64,000 bases of DNA from Planctomycetota bacterium. GTDB taxonomy: Bacteria; Planctomycetota; J058. A program made the translations under genes and the position numbers. The DNA lies in NCBI GenBank assembly GCA_023954375.1, contig JAMLIC010000022.1:1-64000 (forward strand), in the 5' to 3' direction. This document shows, piece by piece, positions 2,838 to 63,947 of the stretch; positions within the stretch are counted from its first letter, which is position 1; every line of letters begins with the position of its first letter. Below the pieces are notes generated by a model, which was given only the letters and a program-made list of their open reading frames with translations, was not told the DNA's origin and did no database searches.

Positions 2838-3020
2838 CCGCGCGGGCGGCCACCCTGACCGGACGGGCCGGCGGCGCTCCACCTCGACGCGCTGGCCGCG
2901 GCCGCGCGAGACGCGATCACGCGCGACCTCCTCGGGTCCGCGCGAACCGCTCGGCGTGCCACTTCCGCGCTCGTCGCGACCGGCGCCGTCCGCCGACCTG
3001 ATCGGCTGCGCGCCGGCCCG

Positions 3021-3042
3021 AGCGCTCCGCGCGGGTAGCTCC
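3021..3042. repeat. 22-base intergenic repeat, copy 1
   Basis: These 22 bases are identical to 24805-24826. The sequence contains GCGCTCCGCGCGGGTAGCTC. Both copies lie in divergent intergenic regions with a minus-strand gene on the left and a plus-strand gene on the right, and both are in the same orientation. Confidence 0.7.
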
Positions 3043-3083
3043 TCGTGCCGCTCCCGCACACGTCTCGGGCCGGTGAACCGCGC

Positions 3084-3170
3084 GTAACTCCTGAGCCAGG
3101 ACGGCCACGCGCAGCCGCGCCCGCGCGAAGCCGCTTCGTAGCCCTGCGAACGCCGCGGCGGTAACTCCTG
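3084..3170. repeat. GTAACTCCTG short repeats
   Basis: GTAACTCCTG occurs at 3084-3093 and again at 3161-3170, each preceded by a CG-rich run. The related GTAGCTCCTC lies at 3035-3044 inside the 22-base repeat. On the minus strand all read AGGAGYTAC followed by CGC-rich sequence, suggesting degenerate copies of one element. Confidence 0.4.
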
Positions 3171-3224
3171 CGAGTCCAGTCAGGCATCCGACTTGCTCTC
3201 GCCGGGCTACCCTGGGGCGTCGCC

Positions 3225-4853
3225 ATGGCCTACGACCCCGACGGCAAGAGCGAGCACTTCGCCCGCTGGCTCGTGCGCCTGCGCTGGCGAGGGATCGTCC
3301 TCGCGGCGGTCGTCCTGGTCCTCCTCAGCGCGGGCACCGGCCTCGTCCGCAGCCCGTGGCTGTGCGCGCTCGTGCTGGGGATCCTCGCCGCCGCCAACCT
3401 GGCCCTCGATCACCAGCTCCGCCGCGGCAACGTGAGCGACTCGTCGCTCTTCGGCCAGCTCGGGCTCGACGTGGCGGCGATCACGGTCGCCCTCCACCTC
3501 ATGGGCGGCGTCGAGAACCCCTTCCAGGTCTACTACGTGTTCCCGACGATCATCTCCGGGATCGTCCTCCCGCGCTCGGCGGCCTACGGCGTCGCGGGCC
3601 TGGCCAGCGCCCTCTACCTGGCCATGGGCCTGCTCGAGTACGCCGGCGTCCTGCCCCACCACGACGTGGGGCCGCTCCCCTTCTGGCGGGCGACCCCGGC
3701 CGGCCAGGGGCCGGACCAGTTCGAGGACGCGGGCTACCTCCTCGGCGCCGCCTGCGTGCTCCTCTCGACGCTCCTCGTTGCCACCTACCTGACGACGCAG
3801 GTCGCCGAGCGGCTCCGCGCCCAGGAGCACGAGCTCGCGGCGTCGCGCGACCGCATCGAGGCGGTCCTGCGGGCGCTCGGCGAGGGGGTCGCGTTCTTCG
3901 ACCATGACGGCCGGCTCGTGCTCGCCAACGCCGCCTTCGACCGGCTGGTCCCGGCGACCGCCGGGTTGCGCCTCCTCGAGCGCGCCCCGGCCGCGCTGCG
4001 CCCGCCGCTCACGGAGGCGCTCGGACGGCTCGCCGCCGGGGCGCGGCACGAGACGTTCGAGGCGGCCGCTGACGGGCGCGTCCTCGCCTGCGGCCTTTCG
4101 CGCGCGCCGGGCGGCGTGGCCTGGGTGGTCGAGGACGTGACCGACCGCCGCGAGGCGCAGGCCCGGGCCGAGACCGAGCGCCGCCTCATGGACCTGGGCG
4201 TCCTGGCGGCCGGCCTGGCGCACGAGGTCCTGAACCCCCTCGCGTCCGTCGCCTCGAGCGTCCAGCTCGCGCAGGAGGCCGCCGGCGGCGCCGAGCCGGT
4301 CGACGCCCCGCTGCGGCAGGCCCGGCGACGGATCGCCCAGCTGGCCGAGGTCGTGCGGAGCGTCGCCGACCTGGCGCGCCCGCCGGCCGCCCGGGGGGCG
4401 CCCTCGCCCCTCCTGGAGGTCTGCCGGCAGGCGATCGAGCAGGCCAGGGAGGAGCGGCCCGGCGCGGCGGAGATCGCCCTCGACGCGCCGGCGGGCGGTC
4501 CGACCGTCGTCATGGCCGACGGCGCCATGAGCACGGCGCTCAAGAACCTGCTCACCAACGCGATCGACGCCACCGACGGCGAGGGCCCGGTGACCCTGCG
4601 CGTCCGCGCCGAGCCGGACGCGGCCGTGGTGGAGGTCGAGGACGGCGGCCCCGGCCTCGGCGCCGAGCCCGCCGCGCGCCTGTTCGTCCCCTTCTTCACG
4701 ACCAAGCCGCCGAGCCGCGGCACCGGGCTCGGCCTGCCGATCGCGCGCAGCATCGTGCGCGAGCACGGGGGCGAGATCGCGGTCGACTCCGCGCCGGGGC
4801 GCGGGACCCGCGTGACCGTGCGCCTCCCCCGGCAGGAGGAGGACGCCGCGTGA
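3225..4853 (+). CDS. Membrane-bound PAS sensor histidine kinase, NtrB/ZraS-like
   Basis: This 542-residue sensor has about six N-terminal membrane helices (residues 20-190), a short coiled region, a PAS-like domain (about 205-315) and a kinase core. The phosphoacceptor is His333 in GLAHEVLNPLAS. The N box reads NLLTNAIDAT, G1 is EDGGPGLG, the F box is PFFTTKPP and G2 is GTGLGLPIARS. A dimerisation box of the HExxNPL type followed by a compact HATPase domain is typical of kinases paired with sigma-54 activators, and its stop overlaps the start of exactly such a regulator (GTGA at 4850-4853). The ATG at 3225 lies 11 bases after TACCCT, a possible -10. The signal sensed is unknown. Confidence 0.92.
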   Translation: MAYDPDGKSEHFARWLVRLRWRGIVLAAVVLVLLSAGTGLVRSPWLCALVLGILAAANLALDHQLRRGNVSDSSLFGQLGLDVAAITVALHLMGGVENPFQVYYVFPTIISGIVLPRSAAYGVAGLASALYLAMGLLEYAGVLPHHDVGPLPFWRATPAGQGPDQFEDAGYLLGAACVLLSTLLVATYLTTQVAERLRAQEHELAASRDRIEAVLRALGEGVAFFDHDGRLVLANAAFDRLVPATAGLRLLERAPAALRPPLTEALGRLAAGARHETFEAAADGRVLACGLSRAPGGVAWVVEDVTDRREAQARAETERRLMDLGVLAAGLAHEVLNPLASVASSVQLAQEAAGGAEPVDAPLRQARRRIAQLAEVVRSVADLARPPAARGAPSPLLEVCRQAIEQAREERPGAAEIALDAPAGGPTVVMADGAMSTALKNLLTNAIDATDGEGPVTLRVRAEPDAAVVEVEDGGPGLGAEPAARLFVPFFTTKPPSRGTGLGLPIARSIVREHGGEIAVDSAPGRGTRVTVRLPRQEEDAA

Positions 4854-57648: not shown

Positions 57649-57891
57649 GTGATCACCGCCGACGAGATCGTCCAGCGCATCCAGACCGCGATCCCGGGCG
57701 CCGTCGTGCGCGTCCAGGACACGGGCGGCGGCGACCACTGGTCCGCCGTCGTCATCGCCCAGGCGTTCGAGGGCAAGACGCGGGTCGAGCAGCACAAGAT
57801 GGTGCAGGCGCCGCTCAAGGACAAGATCGCCGACAACTCGATCCACGCCCTGCAGCTCAAGACGATGACGCCGAAGGAGGCGGGGCTGTAG
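57649..57891 (+). CDS. BolA-family protein
   Basis: This 80-residue BolA-fold protein has the core VRVQDTGGGDHWSAVVIA, FEGKTRVEQHKMV and HALQLKTMTPKEAG. BolA proteins partner with monothiol glutaredoxins in Fe-S handling, the variable loop and the His in EQHKM being the usual cluster ligands. No glutaredoxin gene is in the window. The GTG follows GGAGGAGGG. Its 3' end overlaps the end of the convergent transglutaminase gene by 35 bases. Confidence 0.93.
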   Translation: MITADEIVQRIQTAIPGAVVRVQDTGGGDHWSAVVIAQAFEGKTRVEQHKMVQAPLKDKIADNSIHALQLKTMTPKEAGL

Positions 57892-60013
57892 CGGCGCGCA
57901 GCGCCGCGAGCGCCCGGCGCGCGGCGGCGTTGGCGGCGGCGTCGCTCGGCCGGCCGCCGAAGCGGGCGGCGTGGTACGCCGGCAGCCAGGCGACGAGGTC
58001 GTCGACGGGCGGGCCGAGCGCGGGGCGCGCGCGCGCGAGGACCTCCTTGAGCGTCTCGCCGTCGCGGCGGACCACGCCGCGGCGGGCGAGCGCGTCGAGG
58101 ACCTCGGCCACGAGCGGCGCGTCGGGGCCCGTGACGCCGCGCCGGGCCGCGCGGCGCGCGCCCTGGCCGCGGGCGAGGGCGACCAGGCCCGCGGCCGCGG
58201 CGCCGGCGATCGCCAGCGCGACGGCCGGGCGCGCCCGCCGGCGCCCGGGACGTCGACGGCCGCGAGGACGGCGGCGGGCGCCGCGAGGGCGGCCGGCAGC
58301 CGCCCGGCACGGCGCGCAGGGCGGCGCGCTGGTCGTAGGGGCGTCGAAGGCGATGACCCACTTGTACCAGCGGAGCTCGAGCCAGTCGGTCAGGGCGGCG
58401 GTCAGCTCGAACAGGCGGGTCAGCGCGCCGCCGCCGCCGGCCTCGTCGAGGTCCGGCGTGGCGTCGAGGCGCACCCACCCGTGCTCCGTCTCGGCCTCGA
58501 CCCAGGCGTGCGCGTCGCGCTGGCGCACGGTCCAGGTCCCCGCCCAGGCGTTGAAGACGCCGCCGCGGAAGCCGCTCACGAGGCGGCTGGGGATGCCGTT
58601 GACGCGCAGGAGCACGGCCAGCGCCGACGCGAAGTACTCGCAGTGGCCGGCGCGCAGGGTGAAGAGGAAGTCGGCCACGGGCTCGGTGCCCGGCGTGCGG
58701 TTCGCGTCGAGGGAGTAGCGGAAGGTCGTCTGGAGGTGGTCCTCGAGCGCGCGGGCCACCGCCGACGCCGGCGCGTCCTCGGGGACGCCGCGGGCGCGGA
58801 GGACGCGAGCGCTGTACTCGGCGAGCCGCGGCCGGTCGACGGCGTCGGGCAGGCGCTGGCAGTGCTCGCGGACGCGGCGGGCCCCGACCGCCGTGAGGTG
58901 GAGGCGCGGGACCTCGACCTGGGGGTGCGCGACGAGCCGGTAGGCGATCGGGACGGCGGGCACCGGGAAGCAGAGGATCGTGCCCAGGGCGTCGCGGTCG
59001 ACGACCGCGGGGCGGGCCGACTTGAAGTGCAGGCCGCGGGTCGTGCCGACGGTGAACAGGCAGCGCGTGCCCAGGGCCTCCTGATAGATCACGACCTCGG
59101 CCGTCGGCGCGTCCTCGGGCACGGCCACCAGCGGATCGCGCAGCTCGTCGGTCCCGTCGAGGCGCACGCCGGCGAAGCCGAAGACCCGCGTCGCGTGCCA
59201 CGAGGCGCCGTCGTAGTGGTCGAGGGCGCGGCCGCGCCAGTAGGGGGCGACGGGGAGCGTGCCCGCGACGAGCTCCGCCCGGAAGGCGGTCGCGTCGCTC
59301 TGCTGGATGCGGCCGATGTCGTCGAGGCCCACCACCTCGGTGAACCCCGAGAGGCGGTCGCGAGAGTCGCGCTGCTGCGGGAGGAGGTGGGCGCCGACGC
59401 GCGGGAAGGCGAAGAAGAAGGCGCCGGCGAGGGCGAGCCCCGGGGCGAGGGCGAGGGCGCGGCGGAGCGCGGCCGCGGGGCGGCGCGCCGTCGGGCCGGG
59501 CGCGGCGACGACGGGCGCCCGCGCGCCGGCCGCGACCTCGATGAGGTCGCGGCGCGCGCGGAGGCTCGCCAGGGCGAGGAGGCAGGCGATGTCGGCCAGG
59601 AGCACGAGGCCGAACAGCGGCGACACCCCCTCGGAGGCGGCGGCTCCCGCGAGGACGAGCCCCACGACCAGCCCGAGCCCCTCGTCGCGGCGCGTCCGTG
59701 GCGCCGCGAGCTTGATCGCCTGGGCGACCAGCAGGAACAGCGCGAGCCCCGGCCCGGCGCGGCGCTCGTGGAGGCTCACGAGGAGCCCCAGGGCGGCGGC
59801 GAGGAGGCCGAGGAGCCCCTCGAGCGCCGGCGGCGCGGCGACGCGGCGCGGGCGCACCAGGGCGACGAGGAGCGCCGTCAGGAGCGTGGCGCCGGCGAGC
59901 CCCCAGGACTCGAAGCCGAGCGCGAGCGCCGCGCCGCCGAGCGCGTGGACGGCCACGAGCAGGCGGTCCTCCCGGCGGTCCGCGGGGCGGAGGAGCGGGG
60001 CGCGCGCCGTCAC
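57857..60013 (-). CDS. TgpA-type transglutaminase-like membrane protein, frameshifted near its C-terminus
   Basis: This nominal 718-residue protein has about six N-terminal membrane helices (residues 10-190), a domain with GFTEVVGLDDIGRIQQSD, and a papain-like transglutaminase core near residues 470-545 with Cys in RAGHCEYFASALAVLL, His in RQRDAHAWVEAE and Asp in VRLDATPDLD. After ELRWYKWVIAFDAP (plus-strand 58340) the product degenerates into Arg and Pro; YDQRAALRAV appears in a second frame, and AVALAIAGAAAAGLVALARG returns in the first, so at least two single-base shifts lie in 58230-58340. The GTG start overlaps the DUF58 stop. With DUF58 it forms a typical cell-envelope pair. Confidence 0.8.
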   Translation of the reverse strand: MTARAPLLRPADRREDRLLVAVHALGGAALALGFESWGLAGATLLTALLVALVRPRRVAAPPALEGLLGLLAAALGLLVSLHERRAGPGLALFLLVAQAIKLAAPRTRRDEGLGLVVGLVLAGAAASEGVSPLFGLVLLADIACLLALASLRARRDLIEVAAGARAPVVAAPGPTARRPAAALRRALALAPGLALAGAFFFAFPRVGAHLLPQQRDSRDRLSGFTEVVGLDDIGRIQQSDATAFRAELVAGTLPVAPYWRGRALDHYDGASWHATRVFGFAGVRLDGTDELRDPLVAVPEDAPTAEVVIYQEALGTRCLFTVGTTRGLHFKSARPAVVDRDALGTILCFPVPAVPIAYRLVAHPQVEVPRLHLTAVGARRVREHCQRLPDAVDRPRLAEYSARVLRARGVPEDAPASAVARALEDHLQTTFRYSLDANRTPGTEPVADFLFTLRAGHCEYFASALAVLLRVNGIPSRLVSGFRGGVFNAWAGTWTVRQRDAHAWVEAETEHGWVRLDATPDLDEAGGGGALTRLFELTAALTDWLELRWYKWVIAFDAPTTSAPPCAPCRAAAGRPRGARRRPRGRRRPGRRRARPAVALAIAGAAAAGLVALARGQGARRAARRGVTGPDAPLVAEVLDALARRGVVRRDGETLKEVLARARPALGPPVDDLVAWLPAYHAARFGGRPSDAAANAAARRALAALRAATAPPPSASSS

Positions 60014-61195
60014 GGCGCCGCCTCCTCGGGGTGGGCCGCCGCGGCGAGGTCCGTCCGCGGGGGGTGGCGGCGCGCCGGCCCGTCGCGCGCTGCGCCGTCC
60101 CGTCGGTCGTCCTGGAGCAGGCGCGTCAGGTCCTCGTCGCCGGCCACCGTCAGCGTCAGGGCCCCGGCGAGGCGGGCGCCGGCGTCCCCCGCCGCGACGA
60201 CGATCGTGCGCGCGGCGGGGGCGCCCGCGCGCGTCGCCTGGTCGGCGGCCGCGAGGTCGGCGTCGCCCGGCCCGGCGAGGGCCAGCGCCTCGAGGGCGCG
60301 GCGCAGGGCGGCCTCCCCCTCGCCCGGCGCCACGACGACGGGCGCGCCCGCCCCGGCGATCGCCAGGGCGAGGCGCTCGCCGCGGCGCAGGAGGTGGGCG
60401 GCGACCGAGGCGGCCACGGTGACGGCCCCCTCCACGGCGTCCTCGGCCGCCGCGGCGGGCAGCCGGACGAGGAGCCGCGCCTCGCGCGGGGCCGTGCGCT
60501 CGAACTCCTTGACCAGGAGCGCGCCGCGCCGGGCGCTCGAGCGCCAGTGGATCGTGCGCACGTCGTCGCCGGGGCGGAGCTCGCGCAGGCCGCGGACGAC
60601 GTCGCGCCGCTCGGGGGTGAACGCCAGGCGCCGCGCGACCGCCTCGGCCGGCGGCGCGGGCGCGGCGTCGAGCGCGCCCGGCGCAGGGGCCGCGCCCGGG
60701 GCAGGACGAGGACCTTCGGCCGGCAGGTCGAGCGCGCGCCAGCGCTCGACGAGCCCGAACGGCCCTTCCGGGCCACCACGCACGGGCCAGGGCAGGGCGG
60801 GCGCGCCCGCGGCGCAGGCAGCGGCCGGCGCGCCGCGCGCGGCGCGGGCGCCCGGCGGAGCTCGAGGACGACCGCCCGCGGCGCGCCGCGTCGAGCGCGG
60901 CGCCCTCGACCCGCTCCTCGACGAGCACCGGGGCGGCGGTGCCGTCGTCGGCCTCGACGAGCAGGGCCACCTCCAGCGGCTCGCCGGCGACGCCCGGGTC
61001 GGGCGCTGGCCGGCGGACGCGCACGGCGCGGACGGCGCGGCCGGCCAGGCGGTGGTTCAGCCACAGGACGGCGACGATGACCCCCGCGACCAGGTAGAGG
61101 AGGTTCGTGCCCGTGTTCAGCGCGCCGAGGAGGAAGCCGACGCCCAGGAGCGCGACGACCTTGCCTTCCTTCGTCAGGCGCGAGCGGACGGCCAC
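60010..61195 (-). pseudogene. DUF58 protein gene with multiple frameshifts
   Basis: The N-terminal part from the ATG at 61195 reads well as a DUF58 opening (two helices: VVALLGVGFLLGALNTG, LLYLVAGVIVAVLWLNHRL) up to about 60880. It then runs into Arg- and Gly-rich sequence. VVLELRRAPAPRAARR continues the fold in a second frame, and GPFGLVERWRALDLPAE, LRPGDDVRTIHWRSSARRG and the C-terminus are in a third frame to the stop at 60010. Two or more indels therefore lie in about 60650-60880, mostly in G or C runs. Either the gene is decaying or the assembly has indel errors here. DUF58 genes usually sit beside transglutaminase genes, as here. Confidence 0.7.
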
Positions 61196-61215: not shown

Positions 61216-62013
61216 TCAGCGCACCTCGAACTCGAACAGGAACACGCCGTTGCTCGACGCGGCGGCGGCCCAGGAGGAGGCGTCGAGGCCGTAGACCAGG
61301 AGGCCCCAGGTCCCCGCGGGGAGGCGGCCGCCGCCGAGCGCGGAGCCGCCGCGGAAGTAGCTGGCCAGCCCCGGGTCGTCGAAGGCGAGGCGAGGGGTCG
61401 TCCCCGGGACCTCGACCAGCCGCTCGAGGTGGTAGGCCCGGCCGGAGACCATCGCGCTCTGCGCGAGCACGTCGAGGCGGTACAGGGCCACGAGGAAGCG
61501 GTCCGCCTGCGGGGCGGCCCAGGTCGCCTCGGCGGGCGGCGCCACGACGGGCGGCGGGAGGAAGGGGTCGAGCCGACCGGCCGGCGAGAGGATGGTGATC
61601 GCGGTCGGAGACGGCGTCGCCCCGACGACGGCCACGTTGCTGACGGTCGGCGCCCCGCCGCGGGCCCCTTGAACCTGCAGGCGCGCGCCTGGCGGCGCGG
61701 CGACCGTGAAGAAGAGCTGCTCGGGGGAGGCGACCGCGGGCGCGAGGTTCGTGTCGATGAGGCCGCGGCCGCTGTCCATGAGCAGCCGCGGCGTCTGGAG
61801 GTCGGGGTCGCTCACCAGGACCGTGACCCCGAGCCCCTGCCCGAAGACCGGCGCGGCGTCGTCGAGCGCCACGATCCGCAGCGCGGCGACCCCGCCTGCC
61901 GGGGGGCCCGCCGAGAACTTGCGCTGGCCGGGACCCGGCGAGCCGGTGTTGCACCCGGCGGCCAGCAGGCCCAGGAGCAGGGGCAGGACGAATCGTGTCA
62001 GGTGAGCGCTCAT
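61216..62013 (-). CDS. Lipoprotein of unknown function
   Basis: This 265-residue lipoprotein has the signal HLTRFVLPLLLGLLAAGC, with lipobox LAAGC at about residue 20. The mature part is beta-rich, with segments such as GLGVTVLVSDPDLQ, NVAVVGATPSPTAI and TWGLLVYGLDASSWAAA, suggesting an Ig- or jelly-roll-like fold. I do not recognise a family. The ATG at 62013 has GGAGG upstream and keeps the signal at the start. It is divergent from the caspase-like gene (176 bases). Confidence 0.7.
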   Translation of the reverse strand: MSAHLTRFVLPLLLGLLAAGCNTGSPGPGQRKFSAGPPAGGVAALRIVALDDAAPVFGQGLGVTVLVSDPDLQTPRLLMDSGRGLIDTNLAPAVASPEQLFFTVAAPPGARLQVQGARGGAPTVSNVAVVGATPSPTAITILSPAGRLDPFLPPPVVAPPAEATWAAPQADRFLVALYRLDVLAQSAMVSGRAYHLERLVEVPGTTPRLAFDDPGLASYFRGGSALGGGRLPAGTWGLLVYGLDASSWAAAASSNGVFLFEFEVR

Positions 62014-62176
62014 GTCGACGACCTCCACGTTGGCGAGGTCGAGACTCAAGTGCCGGTCCGGGCGCAACGCCGCGCCTCGTCGAGGCCCTGTCGCCGGGCG
62101 TAGACACTTGCGTGTCGCCGCGGAAAGCCGGCCGCCTTGACGCCAGGTCGCGGGTGCAGCCAGGCGCGGCGGCGGC

Positions 62177-62189: not shown

Positions 62190-63377
62190 ATGCGCCGGGT
62201 CCTCGCCGCGTCCGTCGTCGCCTTCGCCCTGGGGCTGGTCGTCGCCCACGCGCCTGCCCCCGCCGTCGCGCGGGCGCAGGACGCGCCGCGGCTGCTCGAG
62301 CTCGACCTCGACCCGGCGCGGACGACCGTGTTCGCCGTCGGCGTCCTCACCTACCGCGACGCTCGCCTGGCGAGCTTCCCGCAGGAGGGCCGGCGCGACG
62401 CCGAGCTCGTGGCGCACCTCCGCGGGCGCGGGGCCAAGGACGTCGTGTTCCTCACCGACCGCGAGGCCACCCTGCGCCGGATCCAGGCCGAGTTCGCCGC
62501 CCACCTCGAGCGCAGCCAGCCCGGCCAGACGCTCGTCGTCTACTACACGGGCCACGGCCTGCGCGACGAGGGGGAGGTCGGCTTCACCCCCTGGGACGCG
62601 GGGCGGCGCGGCCTGGCCACGACGTGGCGCGTGCGGGCGATCGTCGAGGCGATCCGGGCGCGCTTCCGGGGCGAGCGGGTGCTCCTGGTGATCGACTGCT
62701 GCCACTCGGGGGCGATGACCGACGCGGTCGTCGCGCTCGGCCCCGACGGAGAGGTCGCCTGGACCTCCATGGCCTCGGCCCACGCCGCCGCGCAGTCGAC
62801 GGGCAACTGGACCTTCACCGAGGCGGTCCTCGACGGCCTGCGCGGCGACCCGCGGCTCGACGCCGACGACGACGGCCTCGTCGACCTCGGCGAGGTCGCC
62901 GCCTTCGCCGAGGTCGAGATGGCCTTCGCCGAGGAGCAGCTCACGTCCTTCCACGCCCACCCGCGCTTCGGGCCTCGCACGCGCCTGGCGCGCGTGAGCG
63001 CCCCGCGGCCGCCGCCGCGGACGGGCGAGCGCGTGGAGGTCTTCTCCGAGGACGCCTGGTGGAAGGCGCGGATCCTCGAGATGCGCGGCGAGCGGGCGAA
63101 GGTCCGCTACTACGGCTGGGGCCCCGAGCACGACGAGTGGGTCGAGCCGCGCCAGATGCGCGCCTACGCGCCGCGCGCCTGGGCCGTCGGCGCCCGCGTC
63201 GAGGTGGAGTCCGACGGCCGCTGGTACCCGGCGTCGATCATCGAGGTCCGGCCGCTCGGCCTGCACAAGGCGCGCTACGACGACTACGACGCGTCCTGGG
63301 ACGAGTGGGTGCCGTCGAGCCGCATCCGCGAGCCGGGCGCCGCGCCGGACGACCGCCGCCGTCGGCGGCGGCGCTGA
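62190..63377 (+). CDS. Exported caspase-like protein with EF-hand and two Tudor-knot repeats
   Basis: This 395-residue protein has a signal peptide (RRVLAASVVAFALGLVVA, Ala-rich cleavage region to AQD), a caspase/metacaspase (C14) domain at about 40-245 with the catalytic His122 (YYTGHGLRDEG) and Cys171 (LVIDCCHSGAM), and an EF-hand-like calcium loop DADDDGLVDLGE at about 224-235. Two ~48-residue repeats follow: GERVEVFSEDAWW with VRYYGWGPEHDEWVEPRQMR, and GARVEVESDGRWY with DYDASWDEWVPSSRIR. These match Tudor-knot/chromo-barrel folds. The tail is Arg-rich. It should be a secreted, possibly calcium-dependent protease or scaffold. Confidence 0.88.
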   Translation: MRRVLAASVVAFALGLVVAHAPAPAVARAQDAPRLLELDLDPARTTVFAVGVLTYRDARLASFPQEGRRDAELVAHLRGRGAKDVVFLTDREATLRRIQAEFAAHLERSQPGQTLVVYYTGHGLRDEGEVGFTPWDAGRRGLATTWRVRAIVEAIRARFRGERVLLVIDCCHSGAMTDAVVALGPDGEVAWTSMASAHAAAQSTGNWTFTEAVLDGLRGDPRLDADDDGLVDLGEVAAFAEVEMAFAEEQLTSFHAHPRFGPRTRLARVSAPRPPPRTGERVEVFSEDAWWKARILEMRGERAKVRYYGWGPEHDEWVEPRQMRAYAPRAWAVGARVEVESDGRWYPASIIEVRPLGLHKARYDDYDASWDEWVPSSRIREPGAAPDDRRRRRRR

Positions 63378-63896
63378 TCACTTCCCGTCGCGGTAGATCT
63401 CGGGCATCTCGGGCCCGAGGAGCCCCGTGATCTGCCCCTCGAACACGAGCTTCGAGCCGACGAACGCCTGCGTCTTGTAGCTCGAGCGGCGGAGCTTCAG
63501 CTCCTCGACGACGACCACGATCGTGACCCGGTCGCCGGGGCGGATCGCGTCGCGGAACTTCACCCCGTCGATCCCGCCGAAGAGCATCACGCGCCCGGGC
63601 GCCTCCGAGCGGCCGACCACGTGGCGCCAGTAGAAGACGCACAGCTGCGCCACGCTCTCGACGAGGAGCACGCCGGGGAAGTAGGGCTGGTTGGGGAAGT
63701 GGCCCCGGCACCAGAACTCGTCGCCGCCGACGTCGCGGAAGCCGACCGCGTGGCCCTGCTCGGGGTCGATCCGGTAGACCCCATGGAGCTGCCGCATCTC
63801 GTGACACTGCGGCAGGTAGATGTCGAGCGCCGCGGCGTCGAACGCGACCTCCCGCGGGTCGATGCTCTCCAGCTCGATGAGCGGCTTCGGCGGCAT
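63378..63896 (-). CDS. FabZ-like 3-hydroxyacyl-ACP dehydratase
   Basis: This 172-residue hot-dog fold protein has the dehydratase motif WCRGHFPNQPYFPGVLLVES, with the catalytic His and Glu conserved, and FGGIDGVKFRDAIRPGD as the substrate-channel region. It is about 25 residues longer than standard FabZ at the N-terminus, and the His position is preceded by Gly as in FabZ rather than FabA. The ATG at 63896 has GGGGACGGGAC before it; an earlier GTG would add a poor extension. Its stop abuts that of the caspase-like gene. It may complete the fatty acid cycle, as no fabZ is in the fab operon, or act in a lipid A-like pathway. Confidence 0.85.
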   Translation of the reverse strand: MPPKPLIELESIDPREVAFDAAALDIYLPQCHEMRQLHGVYRIDPEQGHAVGFRDVGGDEFWCRGHFPNQPYFPGVLLVESVAQLCVFYWRHVVGRSEAPGRVMLFGGIDGVKFRDAIRPGDRVTIVVVVEELKLRRSSYKTQAFVGSKLVFEGQITGLLGPEMPEIYRDGK

Positions 63897-63920
63897 GTCC
63901 CGTCCCCCCCGGAAACACCG

Positions 63921-63947
63921 ACGCGCCGGGGGGGCCCCCCGGCGCGT
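63921..63947 (-). terminator. GC-rich palindrome upstream of the FabZ-like gene
   Basis: ACGCGCC followed by seven G pairs with six C followed by GGCGCGT, giving a 13-bp palindrome with one central base. On the minus strand TGTTTCC follows. It may end transcription from the gene at the right edge, or block the FabZ-like ribosome site. Confidence 0.5.

Follow-up and report, generated by a model that had tools for sequence, protein, structure and literature searches.

A predicted exported caspase-family protein with tandem chromo-like barrels and an EF-type loop in a planctomycete

Background

What would a bacterium do with a caspase-type protease that appears to be exported and that ends in two chromo-like barrels? 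The question is raised by one gene of the window, the 64,000-nucleotide stretch of DNA analysed here, which is contig 31 of a 10.1 Mb genome (115 contigs) of the phylum Planctomycetota. The combination itself has a precedent. Kaur et al. (2018, Sci Rep 8:6196; PMC5906684) describe secreted proteins of planctomycetes, cyanobacteria, Bacteroidetes and Chloroflexi in which chromo-like domains are joined to caspase peptidases, propose that these domains bind methylated-lysine-like groups with modified surface or wall peptides as targets, stress that bacterial SH3 domains and chromo-like domains occur in parallel architectures, and raise matrix nucleic acid as a ligand. The architecture has been known since 2018, and the window protein, with its hydrophobic N-terminus, caspase-like domain, chromo-like barrels and a subset of the cage aromatics, is a new example of it; it has in common with the published proteins a signal peptide (here predicted), a peptidase of caspase-like type, a tandem of chromo-like domains with an aromatic cage and a planctomycete host, and no essential difference was found. 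An earlier note on this DNA, which regarded an exported Tudor-knot fold next to a caspase domain as unusual for a bacterium, overstated the case in view of that report, and its idea of modified surface proteins as targets coincides with the hypothesis given there. In the literature searched, we found no later paper on the caspase plus chromo-like combination and no report of an experimental test of any family member.

Methods

The AlphaFold2 model of the whole protein was built from 11 aligned sequences. Relatives (33, from at least five phyla) were aligned, and a tree was inferred from the caspase domains alone (window residues 43-268), using these 33 members and 25 bacterial caspases without barrels. 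Cage positions in both barrels were placed via sequence alignments with the MRG701 cage, to which H18, Y26, Y46, W49 and W53 of MRG15 are equivalent. The MRG701 cage consists of H37, Y42, Y62, W65 and W69 (PMC5084153), which is also the source for MRG15 W49.

Results and discussion

Reading frame, export signal and genomic setting

The frame is open for 395 amino acids, from an ATG at 62190 to a stop at 63375-63377 (Table 1). An alternative upstream GTG at 61995 lengthens it; we favour the ATG because an export signal is gained with it and because this start is common to a same-genus orthologue, 90% identical, on a contig of MAG ACE_PLA31 (L024). Against this copy dN/dS was 0.063/0.283 overall, which indicates purifying selection on the frame, and 0.034/0.158 across the barrels. 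The secretion claimed in the earlier note agrees with what we see at the N-terminus, where a hydrophobic stretch with an A-x-A, judged only by eye and with a hydropathy window, predicts export, with cleavage likely after ARA. Residues 2-19 are helical in the model, with low confidence thereafter, and by the same approach nearly all relatives begin with a hydrophobic, export-type N-terminus.

Table 1. Features of the caspase gene and of its immediate neighbours in the window
Feature	Residues	Coordinates	Strand	Basis or remarks
Whole gene, predicted exported caspase with two chromo-like (Tudor-knot/Agenet) barrels	1-395	62190..63377	+	ORF, profiles, orthologues
Sec-type export signal peptide (predicted)	1-29	62190..62276	+	Basic start, hydrophobic core, A-x-A from sequence
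Caspase-fold (C14) domain	43-268	62316..62993	+	AlphaFold2 model vs metacaspase 4, MALT1, caspases; Pfam C14
Asp70, proposed acidic S1 residue	70	62397..62399	+	Start of helix alpha1 (69-80); invariant 33/33
Catalytic His122	122	62553..62555	+	33/33; GHG begins at residue 121
Asp169-Cys170-Cys171, putative S1 Asp and catalytic Cys171	169-171	62694..62702	+	D169, C171 33/33; CHSG from 171
EF-type calcium loop (putative), DADDDGLVDLGE	224-235	62859..62894	+	Helix-loop-short strand-helix in model
Barrel 1 (Agenet/chromo-like)	279-325	63024..63164	+	Cage W291, Y307, W310, H314
Barrel 2 (Tudor-knot/chromo-like)	333-380	63186..63329	+	Cage Y346, Y363, Y366, W370
Arg-rich C-terminal tail, lineage-specific		63351..63374	+	Sequence; pLDDT <50 at 391-395; missing from most relatives
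Likely lipoprotein gene		61216-62067	minus	LLAAGC lipobox; upstream, divergent
FabA/FabZ-like dehydratase gene		63378-63932	minus	Downstream, convergent

The divergent upstream neighbour, for which a Pfam search gave zero matches, and the convergent downstream neighbour suggest that the caspase gene stands alone. The neighbour search put forward in the earlier note was run as an all-against-all ORF comparison of family loci in planctomycetes and other phyla, and brought up as conserved neighbour only a protein-kinase-like gene at three loci; as this gene is of a common planctomycete type, the neighbourhoods point to no functional partner. Elsewhere in the window, a long open frame (57860-61195, minus strand) with TgpA_N and transglutaminase-core matches is the common membrane transglutaminase, with probably a separate gene ahead of it in this frame.

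The caspase domain and its likely specificity

Pfam placed Peptidase_C14 just below its cut-off when run on the whole protein (E = 5.3e-4; 20.2 vs 21.4 bits), and the PADLOC caspase profile matched at E = 9.9e-12. In the whole-protein model (mean pLDDT 86.2, pTM 0.81), residues 44-268 align with Arabidopsis metacaspase 4 over 203 residues (Z 20.1, 2.4 A), and further with MALT1, several caspases and legumain (Z about 19-20 for metacaspase 4, MALT1 and the caspases). H122, C171, D169, D70, D136, W207, D224, E235 and Q250 are invariant across the 33 aligned members, so that the intact His122/Cys171 dyad read from the sequence earlier extends to the whole family. Caspase fold, HC dyad and an acid two residues before the Cys are shared with C14 orthocaspases and metacaspases (metacaspase 4, TbMCA2, GSU0716); the window protein differs from metacaspases in that a p10 is not recognised in its sequence (the fold aligns over 44-268 but Pfam C14 spans only 93-178), and in that, with no evident counterpart to the four-Asp calcium site of TbMCA2, it carries an EF-type loop instead. 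Only 8/33 members have Asp at residue 178, which corresponds in register to TbMCA2 Asp220.

The S1 residues proposed for TbMCA2 are Cys92, Asp95, Ser156 and Asp211 (PMC4357240), and the acids Asp95 and Asp211 are reported to be important for basic substrates, with basic P1 (PMC6426788; PMC4357240). In the window protein, D169 lies two residues ahead of Cys171, which is the register of Asp211, and D70 was matched to Asp95 by position alone, at the start of alpha1, the helix that bears Asp95. From these two acids, cleavage after Arg or Lys is likely.

Two narrower assignments were considered and rejected. NCBIfam NF047832 (caspase, EACC1-associated type) matches residues 50-241 with E = 2.8e-17, but its 62.9 bits fall far short of the 140 required, and membership in a defence system is not claimed, as no profile beyond the generic PADLOC caspase one matches and partners are missing. 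The source genome holds one further C14 protein.

The EF-type loop

The claim that a calcium loop of EF type lies inside the caspase fold is borne out by both pattern and model: residues 224-235 fit the canonical 12-residue DxDxDGxhxxxE pattern and are modelled between helix 208-217 and helix 233-248, residues 230-232 forming a short strand. The strict pattern arises in 0.14% of shuffles of the protein; D224 and E235 are kept in 33/33 members and G229 in 28/33. A search of the protein for a second EF-hand found the strict pattern only once, so the EF-hands are not paired. A similar loop occupies the same place in 6/26 plain bacterial caspases, and EF-hand motifs have been noted in archaeal orthocaspases (PMC6426788). 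The loop is best regarded as a known accessory of prokaryotic caspases that is fixed in the barrel-bearing family and sporadic in plain bacterial caspases; given its presence in the latter, its role may lie in structure and not in switching, and the cautious view is that of a structural calcium site.

The barrels and their aromatic cages

Both repeats, with the cores GWGPEHDEWV (from residue 309) and SWDEWV (from 369), were recognised by Pfam above cut-off (Agenet, E = 6.2e-15, two stretches; Tudor-knot, 1.6e-7), in keeping with the Tudor-knot assignment in the earlier note. Modelled by itself, the two-barrel part reached a pLDDT of 92. Barrel 2 superposes on MRG2 with H3K4me3 or H3K36me3 (Z 11.1, 0.8 A, 53 residues) and on MRG15 (Z 10.9, 1.6 A), while barrel 1 matches the UHRF1 tandem Tudor, PHF1 Tudor and Eaf3 chromo folds with Z about 9-10. 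The models thus place the barrels in the SH3-fold Royal family, and the outcome that had been named as counting against this assignment, SH3-like repeats unrelated to Tudor-knots, did not occur. For the pair, the top Foldseek matches were the tandem Agenet domains of ADCP1/AGDP1 (including those bound to H3K9me peptides) and the FMRP/FXR Tudors; a low overall TM-score and a high rmsd over both barrels indicate that the relative placing of the barrels differs from that in ADCP1/AGDP1 and FXR1/2.

Each barrel of the window protein has four aromatic cage positions, His314 included. In barrel 1 these are aromatic in 33/33 (W291), 33/33 (Y307), 28/33 (W310) and 28/33 (H314) members, and in barrel 2 in 29/29 (Y346), 29/29 (Y363), 25/29 (Y366) and 13/29 (W370), the last position being Asp in another 13/29 relatives. 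The fifth position (MRG15 H18) is S286 and S341 in the window protein, though position 341 is aromatic in 25/29 of the family. The likeness to the chromo-barrels of MRG15, MRG2 and Eaf3 lies in the fold (0.8-1.6 A) and in aromatics at four of the five cage positions; those proteins are nuclear histone readers, whereas the window barrels are tandem, predicted to be exported, and carry Ser at the fifth position in both. Judging from these residues, the cages may bind a cationic group. Agenet and Tudor-knot profiles found no other Royal-family protein in the source genome. A flagellin lysine methylase was considered as the source of a mark and rejected, since its profile gave two weak partial matches there, below cut-off.

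Family and distribution

When the architecture was sought in related genomes, as suggested with the first description of the gene, it was found in full in 24/392 sampled genomes of the phylum Planctomycetota at E < 1e-100. Relatives on named contigs belong to Planctomycetota, Chloroflexota (Oscillochloris), Sericytochromatia, Eremiobacterota/Vulcanimicrobiota and Myxococcota; relative to the main text of PMC5906684, the Vulcanimicrobiota and Myxococcota members are new for this architecture. In the caspase-domain tree all 33 members fall on one side of a branch (100/100, all 200 bootstrap trees). As their caspase domains form one clade with the barrels left out, the members constitute one single-origin family in the sample, and repeated independent fusions are rejected for that sample. 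Barrel number varies, from one in Eremiobacterota (L028-L030, L032) through two in most members to apparently four in L073-L075.

The last three, from planctomycete family f66, are about 500 aa long with two barrel matches beyond the usual two. In Sericytochromatia, tandem caspase-plus-barrels copies occupy overlapping open frames (L027:1649-2869 and 2844-4082), the second with DFCHAG in its active-site Cys stretch. Barrels of related type were also seen in other settings. Euryarchaeota (UBA495, Poseidoniaceae) have open frames of ~446 aa (L037:313-1650, L040:1835-3172) whose beginning resembles a zinc ribbon and which also contain an EF-hand stretch of calmodulin type (EAELIEAFEIFDEDNTGTIS) and two matches of Tudor-knot type, the second of them carrying YDASWDEWV as in window barrel 2, an unusual and apparently non-exported combination. 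A planctomycete locus (L012:1528-1662, minus strand) joins a prenyltransferase/squalene-cyclase-looking repeat region to two C-terminal barrels of Royal-family type, and in the alphaproteobacterium Pelagibacterium lacus (L048:5001-5144) one barrel of the same type occurs alone in a small, apparently exported protein, a case that bears on the mitochondrial-origin idea of PMC5906684.

Proposed function and alternatives

The reading that we prefer, with a probability of roughly one half, is that of an exported Arg/Lys-cleaving C14 protease that is docked on its substrate by the barrels and stabilised by calcium. The protein would be a cysteine endopeptidase of the caspase family (orthocaspase-like) that probably cuts after Arg or Lys, while its two C-terminal Royal-family barrels would hold it on extracellular or envelope targets that have an amino group with a methyl or other alkyl modification, or that present a similar cationic group. 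One calcium ion is probably bound by the EF-type loop, which lies between two helices in the latter half of the caspase domain, and would stabilise or permit the active conformation outside the cytoplasm. This reading is favoured by the caspase fold at Z about 20, the invariant H122, C171, D169 and D70, the MRG-like barrel 2, the conserved cage aromatics, the export-type N-termini, the fixed D224 and E235, the 100/100 clade and the independent proposal of the same logic in PMC5906684; Asp at the fourth cage position of barrel 2 in 13/29 members, the non-aromatic S341 of the window copy, the match of D70 to Asp95 by position alone, and the failure to find a conserved neighbour that points to a target, or a flagellin lysine methylase above cut-off in the source genome, count against it. 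A stronger form, an extracellular reader-protease whose caspase is directed to its targets by marks of methyl-lysine or methyl-arginine that exported proteins carry, strikes us as doubtful. It is possible, though less likely than the preferred reading, that the barrels, much as bacterial SH3 domains do and with no methyl preference, simply anchor a housekeeping envelope protease to peptidoglycan stem peptides or matrix: the SH3 parallels drawn in that paper and a barrel number between one and apparently four, which fits anchoring by avidity, speak for this, but the conserved cage positions and the fact that the nearest solved folds are methyl-lysine readers do not.

The invariance of D224 and E235, the calcium activation of metacaspases (PMC4357240) and the PADLOC match would suit a death or processing factor in which outside calcium triggers the loop and thereby the caspase, leading to death or remodelling of the cell or its kin; we consider this unlikely, as there is a single EF-type loop, its occurrence in plain caspases marks it as no special gate, and the gene, apparently stand-alone, has neither partner genes nor a defence-like neighbourhood. 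Binding of nucleic acid, by which the barrels would localise the protease to DNA or RNA of the extracellular matrix, seems more unlikely still. The Tudor-knot of yeast Esa1 binds RNA, Pfam describes the domain as 'RNA binding activity-knot of a chromodomain', and matrix nucleic acid is raised in PMC5906684, but the kept cage positions point to a small cationic ligand. Very improbable, finally, is a mainly intramolecular role, in which the barrels cover or order the active site as an autoinhibitory or maturation module; a short linker sets them directly after the caspase domain in the model, whose pTM suggests a fairly defined arrangement, yet one barrel in some relatives and more in others would be odd for a fixed lid.

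Conclusions

What is modestly new here is the single-clade evidence, the variable barrel number and an EF loop with invariant ends. The value of the docked, calcium-stabilised protease that we favour lies not in discovery but in a clean test case for a published hypothesis: a single-origin family that crosses phyla, with fixed catalytic and EF residues and a mostly kept cage. Such a small, stand-alone protein lends itself to direct measurement of cage binding, P1 specificity and calcium dependence. Royal-family domains are regarded as readers of chromatin, and a bacterial family, predicted to be exported, that joins such barrels and cage residues to a protease offers a direct test of the published idea that their earliest role was with peptides outside the bacterial cell. 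If the reader-protease form were true, it would mean that bacteria use the Royal-family cage outside chromatin, and that an unrecognised methyl mark exists outside bacterial cells.
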